A DNA stretch of 64,000 bases from assembly GCF_963666525.1 (NCBI RefSeq), contig NZ_OY762905.1, positions 5,101,001 to 5,165,000 of the forward strand, given 5' to 3'. Every line of letters starts with the position of its first letter. Position 1 is the first letter of the stretch. Both the position numbers and the translations under genes were made by a program. Below, piece after piece: positions 33,558 to 58,191 of the stretch. The notes under the pieces were generated by a model. It was given only the letters and a program-made list of their open reading frames with translations, ran no database searches and was not told where the DNA came from. This DNA comes from an uncultured Cohaesibacter sp. (GTDB taxonomy: Bacteria > Pseudomonadota > Alphaproteobacteria > Rhizobiales > Cohaesibacteraceae).

Positions 33558-33736
33558 ATGCCATCACGGACATGGCATAGCAGATTGCCAACCTTGAACG
33601 ACTGTTTCCCTGCATCTCATCGACCGCAGCACAGCAAGCTTGCAGGTGTCATCATGCCTGCGACTTTGCCGGTCCGACAGTGGGATGCGAAATCTAGTTT
33701 CGATGAAATTTCTGTATTTGGAAGCCAGAAACTAGA

Positions 33737-33837
33737 AAGCCCACCGGGGGAGGAGGTCCGGTGGGCTTCGTAGGGTGTTTCAAAACGGGGAGGAGACGTT
33801 TCGAAACGACAGACTTTCGGGAGGAGGAGAAAGTCTG
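33737..33837 (-). ncRNA. Array of three CUCCUCCC-loop hairpins (cuckoo / CcsR / alpha-r14-type sRNAs)
   Basis: Read on the minus strand, three stem-loops follow each other 14 bases after the DUF1127 stop. Stem 33830-33837/33810-33817 has loop CTCCTCCTCCCG; stem 33797-33807/33777-33787 has loop TCTCCTCCC (one mismatch in the stem); stem 33758-33768/33737-33747 has loop ACCTCCTCCC, and this GC-rich stem is followed by CTTTCT and may be the terminator. Conserved CCUCCUCCC loops are anti-Shine-Dalgarno seeds of alphaproteobacterial trans-acting sRNAs. Location behind a DUF1127 gene matches the ccaF1-ccsR operon of Rhodobacter. Family membership is my pattern call. Confidence 0.75.
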
Positions 33838-33850
33838 AAACTTTTAAATT

Positions 33851-34000
33851 TTACATCCCAACTGCGCGTCTGGCAGTCTGGGTAATGTCCGCACGTGAAA
33901 TGCTCACTTCGCATTCTCTGTTGGACAAGCGATTTAGATTATCGACCGTGTCACGAAAATTGCGCCACTGCCTATAATTCTGAACAACCGTATCAAGCAT
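33851..34000 (-). CDS. DUF1127 domain small protein
   Basis: 49 aa from ATG 34000, with AGGA 8 bases upstream; the frame is open to 34159 but the extra part is unlike the family. The core YRQWRNFRDTVDNLNRLSN followed by RECEVSISRADI is the arginine-rich DUF1127 motif. Such proteins include RNA-binding stress proteins that mature sRNAs co-transcribed with them. Three sRNA-like hairpins follow directly on the same strand. Confidence 0.85.
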   Translation of the reverse strand: MLDTVVQNYRQWRNFRDTVDNLNRLSNRECEVSISRADITQTARRAVGM

Positions 34001-34568
34001 CTTGATAATCCTACGTTGCCGAACTCTTAGTGACATCGTCTCATCTGGGAGACGCCTTATTTCGTTTTCAATCAACATCTCGTTGCTGTTGATAAATAGA
34101 TAGCAAACTCCGACGCTACTTTGCACTGCGAAATTATGCATAGCTGACTTGCAGATCATGCAAAACCATCATTGCTCACGAACAGAAGAAGAAAAATTTG
34201 CATATCAAAAATATTCCATAGAAAATAAAGATTTATTTTCAATTAGTTACAAAAATTCCCAGCAAGTTGATTCCAATCAACAAATATACGTAAATTAACG
34301 TACCCTACCCAGGTCAAGATCCTGCGCCCTGTGAAAAGTGGAATTTTTCAAATTTTGTGACGTTGCAAAATTAACGTTCAAAAATGCGATTGTGCGATGC
34401 AGCAAAATTCATCAAAATCTACATGATCTACATCAATGCAAACGAAAGATCAGCGGATCCTGCCAATTAATTCAATAAAATCATAAAGTTATAAAGATAC
34501 CGCCTTTTGACGGCGTTGTGCACCGCCAAAAGTATTACGTATTTCACCTGACCCCTAAAGCCTGAGAA
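34001..34568. other. AT-rich intergenic region upstream of the DUF1127-sRNA unit
   Basis: More than 500 bases, strongly AT-rich, without a credible gene. It should contain the promoter of the minus-strand DUF1127-sRNA transcript. A perfect dyad TTGCA-GATCA-TGCAA lies at 34149-34163. A small hairpin (34557-34577, stem AAAGCCTGA / TCAGGCTTT) overlaps the uvrA stop and may end uvrA transcription, though without a T-run. Confidence 0.5.
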
Positions 34569-37463
34569 TCAGGCTTTCGAGTCGCGGCGCTCATTGAGCT
34601 CCTTCAAAAACAGCCCGGTATAGCTTTTCTCGCATTGCATGACATCTTCCGGCGTACCCTCAACGACAACCTGGCCACCGCCATCGCCACCTTCTGGTCC
34701 GAGATCGAGAATCCAGTCTGCTGTCTGTATCACTTCGAGGTTATGCTCGATGACAATGACCGTGTTGCCCTGATTGACCAACTCATGCAGCACTTCTAGC
34801 AGTTTGGCGACATCGTGGAAATGCAACCCAGTCGTAGGCTCATCCAATATATAGAGTGTCCGCCCAGTCGACCGCTTGGATAGCTCCTTGGCCAGCTTGA
34901 CACGCTGGGCTTCGCCGCCCGAAAGCGTCGTTGCCTGTTGGCCGACTTTGACATAGCCAAGCCCCACTCGCTGCAGGGTGACCATCTTGTCGCGCACGGA
35001 AGGCACCGCCGAGAAGAAGTCGGCAGCCTCGTCAACGGTCATGTCGAGCACGTCAGAGATAGACTTGCCCTTGAACTGCACCTCGAGCGTTTCGCGATTG
35101 TAGCGATGCCCCTTGCAAACATCGCATGTTACATAAACATCGGGCAGGAAGTGCATCTCGATCTTGATAACGCCATCCCCCTGACAGGCCTCACAGCGCC
35201 CACCCTTGACGTTGAAAGAGAAACGACCCGGAGCATAGCCGCGCGCCTTGGCTTCCGGCAACCCGGCGAACCAGTCGCGAATGGGCGTAAAGGCGCCGGT
35301 GTAGGTCGCCGGGTTGGAGCGAGGTGTCCGGCCAATCGGCGACTGATCGATATCGATGACCTTGTCGACATGCTCCAGTCCTTCGATCCGGTCATGCGGA
35401 GACGGCATCTCTCGGGCGCGGTTGAGCTTCATGGCAGCGCTCTTGTAGAGCGTATCAATGAGGAAGGTCGACTTGCCGCCACCGGATACACCCGTCACAC
35501 AGGTAAAGGTACCAAGCGGAATGGAGGCAGTCACATTCTTGAGGTTGTTGCCGCGCGCATTGACGACAGTGATCTGCTTTTTCTTCTTGCCCTTGCGGCG
35601 GGCATGATCGAGCGTGATTGCCTTGGTCCCAGACAGATATTGCCCGGTCAGTGATGCCGGGTCGGCCATGATGTCAGCCGGTGTCCCCTTTGAAACAATC
35701 CGCCCTCCGTGAATGCCTGCGCCCGGTCCGACGTCCACCACATAGTCGGCCTCCAGTATGGCGTCCTCGTCGTGCTCGACGACAACCACGGTGTTGCCCA
35801 GATCACGAAGATGCTTGAGCGTTTCCAGCAGACGGGCGTTGTCGCGCTGATGCAGGCCGATGGACGGTTCATCGAGCACATAAAGAACACCGGTCAGACC
35901 CGAACCGATCTGCGACGCCAGCCGGATACGCTGGCTTTCACCTCCGGACAGGGATCCCGAGCCGCGCGACAGGGTAAGATAGTCAAGCCCAACATCATTG
36001 AGGAATTTCAGGCGCTCGCGGATTTCCTTGAGAATCCGCTCGGCGATTTCCTTCTGCTTGTCAGTAAGCGTTGACGGCAGATCCTGCACCCAGTGGGCGG
36101 CAGCGCGGATGGAAAGGCTTGCCACCTGCGATATATGCTTGCCATCAAGCTTGACCGCCAGGGCTTCCGGCTTCAGGCGGTTGCCCTCACAGGCCGAACA
36201 GGCATGGGCGGACTGGTATTTGCCGATTTCCTCGCGCACCATACTGCTCTCGGTCTCTCGGAAGCGTCGCTCCAGATTGGGGATCACGCCCTCGAATGGT
36301 TTCGAGGTCTTGTATGAACGGGCACCGTCATCATAGACAAACATCAGCTTTTCGTTGCCCGTGCCATAAAGTATGACTTCCTGCGCCTTGAAGGGCAGCT
36401 CGATCCACGGCACCGTCAGCGAAAAGTCATAATGCTTGGCCAGCGCCTCAAGGGTCTGGCGATAGAACGGGGAGGAGGTCTTCGACCAGGGCGCAATCGC
36501 TCCGTCCTTGATGCTGCGCGAGGTGTCGGGGATAACCAGTTCCGGGCTGATCTGCAATTCGCTGCCAAGGCCATCGCAAACAGGGCAGGCGCCGAAGGGG
36601 TTGTTGAACGAAAACAGGCGCGGCTCGATTTCAGGAATGGTAAAACCGGAAACCGGGCAGGCGAATTTCTCCGAAAAGGTGATCTGCTTCAGTTCACCCT
36701 TGTCGTCCGTCTCATCAACCATTTCGATGATCGCCAGACCATCTGCCAGCTCAAGAGCCAGTTCGAGAGAGTCGGCGAGCCGCTTCTCGATCCCTTCCTT
36801 GACCACCATGCGGTGAACCACAACCTCGATGTTATGCTTGAACTTCTTGTCGAGCTGCGGCAACTCGCCGTCATTATACATCTGACCATCAATGCGGAAA
36901 CGGGTAAGGCCCCGTTTCACCAGATCGGCCAGCTCCTTGCGGAACTCGCCCTTGCGGCCGCGGACCATCGGCGCCAGCAACAGGAAGCGGGTCTTCTCGG
37001 GCAGCTCCATGACCCGATCCACCATCTGACTGACCGTCTGGCTTTCAATCGGCAGGCCAGTCGCGGGACTGTATGGAATGCCGACACGCGCAAACAGCAA
37101 TCGCAGATAATCATAGATCTCGGTCACGGTGCCCACCGTGGATCGAGGATTGCGCGAAGTGGTTTTCTGCTCGATGGAAATGGCAGGAGACAGGCCTTCG
37201 ATGGAATCCACATCAGGCTTCTGCATCATTTCCAGAAACTGGCGGGCATAGGCCGAGAGCGATTCCACATAGCGCCGCTGCCCCTCGGCATAAATGGTAT
37301 CGAACGCCAGCGAGCTCTTGCCCGAGCCGGAAAGGCCGGTCATGACGACCAGTTGATCGCGCGGAATATCCAGATCGACATTCTTCAGATTATGCTCACG
37401 CGCGCCGCGAATCGAAATCATCTTCTGGGAAGGCGCAAATGGCATTTTGGGGGTATCAGTCAT
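34569..37463 (-). CDS. uvrA: Excinuclease ABC subunit UvrA
   Basis: 964 aa tandem ABC ATPase for damage recognition in nucleotide excision repair. First Walker [15 protein letters not shown], second [14 protein letters not shown] (Gly for the usual Ser), signatures [15 protein letters not shown] and [15 protein letters not shown]. Zinc-binding cysteines occur in [17 protein letters not shown] and CEACQGDG ... [11 protein letters not shown] 37463 is preferred to a TTG at 37484. Divergent from ssb, a common arrangement in alphaproteobacteria. Confidence 0.97.
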
Positions 37464-37859
37464 GTCAAACAGTCTTTCTATCAACGCGGGCTGGCGTCAG
37501 AACCACTATACGAAAACGCTTTACGGGGAGGGCGGGCTACAAGATCACCCATCCTTGGTGTTTGTCCTGCAATTCTCACCCGATGCAATATCGGTTTATA
37601 AAAATCAAGGCAATGGCCAATTTTGACGGCTTCCGAACGCGAACACTTGAATCGCGGGGCCCCATATGTACATGATTTGTTCTATATTGTGAAGTGATTC
37701 ATTGCATCACCACCATGCATATGGCGCATATGGCGAGTGCAGGCCCAAAGTATGGGGATTGCGCCAAAGCCATATGGAAGTCGGGAACGAAGCCTAATAT
37801 GCTGGGCCAAATGCCTCGACGGACTGTCAGGACACAGCAAAGGAACAAAGGAAAAAGCA
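37464..37859. other. Divergent uvrA/ssb promoter region
   Basis: About 400 bases without a gene. I looked for the alphaproteobacterial LexA box (GTTC, 7 bases, GTTC) and did not find a clean copy. A tandem 9-mer GCATATGGC occurs twice without a gap at 37717-37734. The ssb ribosome site AAAGGA lies at the right end. Confidence 0.5.
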
Positions 37860-57518: not shown

Positions 57519-57594
57519 TGGTACGCCATCAAGGGTTCGAACCTTGGACCGTCCGATTAAGAGTCGGATGCTCTACCAGCTGAGCTAATGGCGC
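57519..57594 (-). tRNA. tRNA-Lys (CTT)
   Basis: 76 bases including encoded CCA. Acceptor GCGCCAT / ATGGCGT with discriminator A, D-arm AGCTCAGCTGGTAGAGC, anticodon loop CTCTTAA (anticodon CTT), T-arm CAAGGTTCGAACCTTG. Confidence 0.96.
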
Positions 57595-57826
57595 TTAACC
57601 TAAACAAGCTTTGAAGCGTTGTTTATCGTTTCGATGACAGTCTTCTACCAGAGATCAGAGAAAAAGCAATATACGGGAATGTACAGTTTTTGACTTTCTT
57701 CACCGCTTTGTTTGAAAAGACGACTTTTTCCGGATTTTATCAACAAGGCATGCACGCGACAAAACATGAGACCGGCCTTATGAGGCTGATTTCAAAACTG
57801 AATCACGATGTCTGGAGGGGGAAAAA

Positions 57827-57902
57827 TGGTATGCCCGGAAGGATTCGAACCTTCGACCGTCCGATTAAAAGTCGGATGCTCTACCAACTGAGCTACGGGC
57901 AC
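57827..57902 (-). tRNA. tRNA-Lys (TTT), copy 1
   Basis: 76 bases including CCA. Acceptor GTGCCCG / CGGGCAT, anticodon loop CTTTTAA (anticodon TTT), T-arm GAAGGTTCGAATCCTTC. Identical to the copy at 58116-58191. Confidence 0.97.
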
Positions 57903-58115
57903 AAACTCTATAACGACGGTAAATCCGCCGCATTGCCTTTTCGTTAAAGGCCGGACCCTTGTAGCAGAAAAAACCACCCAGTCGAGTAGTGAATTCCACT
58001 TAACCCGGTTTTCTACAACATATTTGCCGTGGCAACCGAACCAACGAAAAAGGCCAAAACATTCCCGCTCAGTTCATAAAGAACCTTGTCTAAGATCTTC
58101 AAAAAGAGGGAGAAA

Positions 58116-58191
58116 TGGTATGCCCGGAAGGATTCGAACCTTCGACCGTCCGATTAAAAGTCGGATGCTCTACCAACTGAGCTACGGGCAC
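58116..58191 (-). tRNA. tRNA-Lys (TTT), copy 2
   Basis: 76 bases including CCA, identical base for base to copy 1; only a few flanking bases are shared (GAAAnATGG context), so the duplication is limited to the tRNA body and its 3' edge. Confidence 0.97.

Follow-up and report, generated by a model that had tools for sequence, protein, structure and literature searches.

The window, i.e., the whole stretch of 64,000 nucleotides of Cohaesibacter DNA that was analyzed, contains on its minus strand a small DUF1127 gene which is followed by three hairpins. The features of this unit and of its upstream region, in the order of their reading, are:

34137–34151, minus strand: LsrB/VtlR-like box CAAGTCAGCTATGCA, 12 of 15 letters identical to the published VtlR box
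34121–34126, minus strand: possible weak −35 position GTGCAA, read from the sequence, 17 nt before the −10
34098–34103, minus strand: putative −10 CTATCT, 33 nt after the box
34037–34054, minus strand: leader hairpin CGTCTC...GAGACG, downstream of the putative promoter and ahead of the DUF1127 start codon
33851–34000, minus strand: DUF1127 gene, 49 amino acids, stop included (PF06568 match and dN/dS)
33732–33843, minus strand: ar14 sRNA (RF02344), match over the full length, 76.5 bits with a cut-off of 58.8
33810–33837, minus strand: hairpin 1, seed CTCCTCCC at 33819–33826 in the loop
33777–33807, minus strand: hairpin 2, the same seed at 33788–33795 in the loop
33736–33769, minus strand: hairpin 3, the same seed at 33748–33755 in the loop, a short U run after it; probable terminator

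The frame of the DUF1127 gene has its ATG at 34000 and its stop codon ends at 33851. Upstream of the unit lies a large frame (34569–37484) which, judged from its translation alone, is presumably UvrA-like. At 57522–58191 of the window (minus strand) three tRNA genes are found within 700 bases, and two of these have equal scores.

The DUF1127 protein and the ar14 RNA

In the Pfam profile PF06568 (DUF1127) the protein passes the curated cut-off narrowly (23.9 vs. 23.3 bits), with a match that covers residues 5–29 only (profile positions 1–25 of 37). This low score is probably caused by the C-terminal half of the protein, in which RECEVSISR departs from the form found in the paralog (RDLSDLGISR). 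A longer version of 102 amino acids with its start at 34159 was rejected, as its Pfam score drops to 21.1 bits, which is under the cut-off, and as indels and stem changes in the leader among the orthologs also disfavor it. Frames in three Cohaesibacter species, the nearest relatives, share 100, 98, and 60% protein identity with the protein of the window. Nine orthologs of the window copy form 36 pairs, and as dN/dS lay between 0 and 0.18 in each of them (dN at most 0.036 throughout, dS up to 2.8), the DUF1127 protein is real and under purifying selection. The 49-amino-acid DUF1127 frame ending at 33851, which had been named in a preceding reading of the letters without any database search (the sequence-only reading), was correctly recognized. 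CcaF1 is an RNA binder, and by analogy the protein may help in RNA maturation as CcaF1 does, or it may act on protein partners. Agrobacterium DUF1127 proteins have been described to bind the sensor kinase PhoR (PMC12501420).

The first stem begins at 33837, 14 positions past the DUF1127 stop, and the hairpins span 33837–33736; the three stem-loops within about 101 bases that the sequence-only reading had placed here are therefore accurate in coordinates and counts. It had further placed its seed in every loop. CTCCTCCC is indeed present in all three, but loop 2 reads UCUCCUCCC and not CCUCCUCCC; CUCCUCCC is common to all three loops. The minimum-energy fold of the 112-nt RNA (−46.7 kcal/mol, z −8.8), in which each loop holds one seed, was matched by none of 200 shuffles. 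CTCCTCCC alone is mildly over-represented in the window (six copies vs. a shuffle mean of 2.1, with at least six copies in 4 of 100 window shuffles); three copies on one strand within 101 bases did not occur in any of 400 first-order Markov windows. Hairpin 3 was not listed by the terminator scan, which permits loops of 3–8 only.

A covariance search, which had been proposed as a check of the sequence-only reading, yielded the ar14 match listed above over model positions 1–123 of 123 (Rfam scan). As its score exceeds the curated cut-off, the RNA is by this model a member of the ar14/NfeR1/“cuckoo” family of three-hairpin anti-Shine-Dalgarno RNAs. Membership in the CcsR1 family (RF02791) was rejected, with 30.3 bits and a cut-off of 65.3, and the whole genome contained no CcsR1 match at an E-value of 0.001.

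The family set consists of all 40 above-cut-off ar14 loci in 20 genomes of the family, of which 33 RNAs (30 distinct) were aligned for covariation; L010, L011, L020, L024, L026, L038, and L043 (the second copy of G018) were left out. Of the 29 consensus pairs, 11 were changed on both sides. Paired cells amounted to 97.8% vs. 91.5% in shuffles, and to at most 59.3% when the partners were slid by one to three columns. Double-change cells numbered 58 vs. 22.3 in shuffles, a value as high being found in none of 500 shuffles. Of the five measures, that of further pair types was equalled in 26 of 500 shuffles, and no shuffle equalled any of the remaining four. The stems consequently vary with pairing being kept by compensatory changes, and the loops are conserved, being nearly invariant across the aligned RNAs. 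This comparative alignment, a second check that had been proposed, agrees with the constant loops and varying stems seen in the window alone. The “one three-seed RNA” that had been considered there is the usual ar14 form and no departure from the known kind; RNAs of three or four hairpins, in which the loops carry CCUCCUCCC and the stems vary, were reported from Rhizobiales in 2011 (PMC3927594).

Distribution of the pair and its upstream box

ar14 was found above the cut-off in all 20 family genomes searched, the own genome included. The latter (one contig of 5,175,666 bases) contains a second ar14 with 92.5 bits, which also sits behind a DUF1127 gene (54 amino acids), and a third DUF1127 frame (L078), near which no Rfam match was obtained at an E-value of 0.01. 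With a profile built from twelve DUF1127 peptides, a DUF1127 frame ending between −60 and +30 nt of the RNA start was found in 38 of the 40 family loci; in the two exceptions, L030 and L031, the 800 nt upstream contain no DUF1127. Of 199 genomes drawn from the order, seven belonging to the own family, 63 gave a match at an E-value of 0.001 and 29 scored above the cut-off. The outside-family set comprises 23 loci, the best per genome, from 56 genomes with a match; 22 of them lie above the cut-off and L076 just below. DUF1127 is present within 800 nt upstream in 17 of these 23 loci and absent from this range in L054, L055, L059, L060, L062, and L074. By these counts the DUF1127-ar14 pairing is common but not obligatory. 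Two loci in another family of the order (L056 and L057, in genomes G152 and G087) exhibit two DUF1127 frames and then three ar14-type seed clusters, and one genome of the own family contains three sub-cut-off ar14 matches (40.6–45.5 bits) in 1.5 kb (G019:C79:1059–2501).

A box resembling CAATGCAGCCATGCA, as which the VtlR box was printed (PMC12595884), lies upstream of the DUF1127 gene, as is typical for the LsrB/VtlR regulon. When the 600 bases upstream were shuffled, 2 of 100 shuffles reached 12 of 15 identical letters, and CAGCTATGCAT is invariant in 12 aligned loci, with the upstream alignment having a mean identity of 67%. Forward matches of at least 12 of 15 letters were present in 33 of 39 family loci (L043 was left out) and each was equalled in 0–6 of 100 shuffles, these box-bearing loci being related by descent and hence not independent proofs. 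Four family loci match at 11 of 15 letters (equalled in 19–32 of 100 shuffles), and L030 and L031, both without DUF1127, at 10 of 15; taken together, the matches of these six were equalled in 19–91 of 100 shuffles. Outside the family, 8 of 23 loci exhibited at least 12 of 15 letters and 15 had no such match in 600 upstream bases. The standalone copies L054 and L055 contain a match of 13 of 15 letters in reverse at about −57, close to the LsrB site of NfeR1 at −72 to −57 (PMC10746234). The exact pattern CAANNCAGCYATGCA occurs at three sites in the genome, two of which are DUF1127-ar14 loci from which the pattern was itself partly derived. The third site (L081, G000:C1:3738965–3738979) precedes a 112-amino-acid HTH_3 frame.

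At the putative −10, the nine closest orthologs read CTATCT (seven), TTATCT (one), or CTATAT (one); this position was not listed by the sigma-70 consensus scan. GTGCAA matches TTGACA poorly, as might be expected for an activator-dependent promoter. In the paralogous group, 12 of 13 aligned loci carry CTATAT together with a box of this type, and the distance from box to CTATAT is 32 nt in the paralog copy of the own genome, compared with 33 nt to CTATCT in the window. Between promoter and gene, the stem of the leader hairpin varies in sequence among nine orthologs, and by eye its pairing can persist. Attenuation in the leader regulates a DUF1127 gene of S. meliloti (PMC12218461), and by analogy the hairpin may be a leader control element.

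A candidate for the regulator is provided by gene order. At L122 (1465–3830) trxB, a LysR gene about 0.2 kb after trxB, and an ar15-like RNA are found in a row, the RNA scoring 31.1 bits and thus below its cut-off of 40. The order is the same as in A. tumefaciens, where it was given as trxB-vtlR-abcR1-abcR2 (PMC7486931). It appears probable that the trxB-linked LysR gene encodes the LsrB/VtlR-type regulator of the unit.

A proposed single transcript and its alternatives

Our preferred reading, to which we assign a probability of roughly 60%, is that the DUF1127-ar14 (“CIN1”-type) unit forms a single LsrB/VtlR-activated transcript from which both the DUF1127 protein and a trans-silencing anti-Shine-Dalgarno sRNA would be produced. 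The LysR-type regulator would activate the promoter with its −10 near 34098–34103, giving rise to a transcript of ~360 nt (approximately 34091 to 33732) that comprises a ~90-nt leader, the 49-amino-acid DUF1127 frame, a 7-nt gap, and the three-hairpin ar14. The gap between stop codon and RNA is A/U-rich, and cleavage within it would probably release the 3′-terminal ar14 from the message. The three exposed loops would then pair with ribosome-binding sites and thereby silence mRNAs in trans, as proposed here because of the work on NfeR1, an ar14 member which silences mRNAs via its loops and is activated by LsrB (PMC10746234). For ccaF1-CcsR, co-transcription and processing by RNase E have been described (PMC10253847).

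The sRNA might also be transcribed alone, from a promoter within the last part of the DUF1127 gene, with the gene being merely its neighbor. NfeR1 has such an LsrB-dependent promoter of its own (PMC10746234), standalone copies exist (L030, L031, L054, and L055), and a simple scan listed a sigma-70-like site (CTGCCA-17-TAAAAT, minus strand, 33876–33848, 9 of 12 letters) at a fitting distance to 33843, i.e., one that would start close to the 5′ end of the RNA, which makes a second start there possible and speaks against a single transcript. As this weak site hardly exceeds the shuffle level (two such sites in the region vs. a mean of 1.1) and as its TAAAAT hexamer is, by eye, lost in most aligned orthologs, one transcript is favored. 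In addition, L030 and L031 have a related box-like block immediately ahead of the RNA, whereas in the DUF1127 loci it precedes the gene. Transcription of the sRNA on its own is therefore regarded as unlikely. Less probable still appears a stress operon driven by an RpoH-type sigma factor, in which the box would be bound by another regulator. It would resemble the ccaF1-CcsR operon of R. sphaeroides, whose RpoHI/RpoHII promoter (PMC10253847) counts against a LysR-type reading; yet two paralogous groups keep the box and CTATCT/CTATAT at a fixed distance from each other. That the hairpins work chiefly in cis, terminating the DUF1127 message and shielding its 3′ end, and do little in trans, would fit the strong hairpin 3 with its short U run but is very improbable, as the seed is kept in all three loops despite changing stems, which structure alone would not require, and as the same loops are required for silencing by NfeR1 (PMC10746234).

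Some observations speak against the single LsrB/VtlR-activated transcript, among them the six of 23 outside-family and two of 40 family ar14 loci without DUF1127, the 15 outside-family and six family loci with fewer than 12 matching box letters, and the sub-cut-off score of the ar15-like RNA. The predicted targets belong here as well. GGGAGGAG is found 3–9 nt before an ATG at 22 sites of the genome (nine for the reversed-pattern control), and 18 of these sites open frames of at least 62 amino acids, six of which Pfam identifies as parts of transporters (five of ABC type and one TctC). A control start-site word yielded 12 sites, nine with frames of at least 196 amino acids and three of these being transporter parts. 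With 6 of 18 vs. 3 of 9 frames, transporters are not enriched genome-wide among the predicted targets over the control.

Relation to described systems

The unit is a real and conserved member of a described family. Short alphaproteobacterial DUF1127 proteins often accompany CcsR-like sRNAs, an arrangement termed “CIN1 locus” (PMC10253847), and the Cohaesibacter unit, with its short DUF1127 gene beside a CcsR-like multi-hairpin RNA, corresponds to this definition as given in one sentence of that paper. The DUF1127-sRNA operon proposed in the sequence-only reading accordingly stands, with ar14 above its cut-off and the synteny in 38 of 40 loci, and the gene-RNA pairing as such had already been described. 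As both the ar14 form and the CIN1 pairing were published before, little of that interpretation is new. Additions of the present analysis, as far as sequence comparison can tell, are the conserved VtlR/LsrB-like box upstream of both loci and the trxB-LysR-ar15-like cluster.

With ar14/NfeR1 of Rhizobiales (RF02344; RFMSmelA075) the unit shares the three hairpins, the anti-Shine-Dalgarno loops, the variable stems, and an LsrB-type box upstream. NfeR1 has its own promoter, whereas in the Cohaesibacter unit the box precedes the DUF1127 gene and the RNA follows it, and loop 2 differs (UCUCCUCCC). The R. sphaeroides ccaF1-CcsR1-4 locus likewise consists of a short DUF1127 gene and then same-strand CUCCUCCC-loop RNAs. 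Yet it contains four sRNAs behind an RpoHI/RpoHII promoter instead of one three-hairpin RNA and a LysR-type box, and its CcsR1 model scores the Cohaesibacter RNA below the cut-off, as stated above. VtlR activates small Brucella DUF1127 genes and Agrobacterium atu1667, which is orthologous to two of these (PMC12595884, PMC7486931). They have in common with the Cohaesibacter unit a small DUF1127 gene and a similar 15-letter box, with binding of the regulator being a prediction in Cohaesibacter; in the parts of their descriptions consulted, no three-hairpin RNA is mentioned behind the genes, unlike in the unit described here.

In the literature searched, much of it available in part, a LysR-type box before the whole DUF1127-ar14 unit was not found stated together with ar14. 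NfeR1 and DUF1127 were not found together in this literature, which covered few subscription papers, and LsrB and DUF1127 do co-occur, in three of its papers. We tentatively propose, at somewhat less than even odds, that one LsrB/VtlR-type regulator controls DUF1127 and ar14 as a single Cohaesibacter transcript and that the published VtlR-DUF1127 and LsrB-NfeR1 links are the split remains of an ancestral promoter-DUF1127-ar14 unit. If so, standalone copies (L054 and L055, for example) would have lost the gene, and the RNA would have disappeared elsewhere. A conserved DUF1127-ar14 unit is herewith documented in a genus beyond the model rhizobia and Rhodobacter, and its LysR-type box joins two regulatory stories which have mostly been handled apart in the literature. 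If the unit is indeed one transcript, the function of DUF1127 and the silencing by ar14 would merit joint study.
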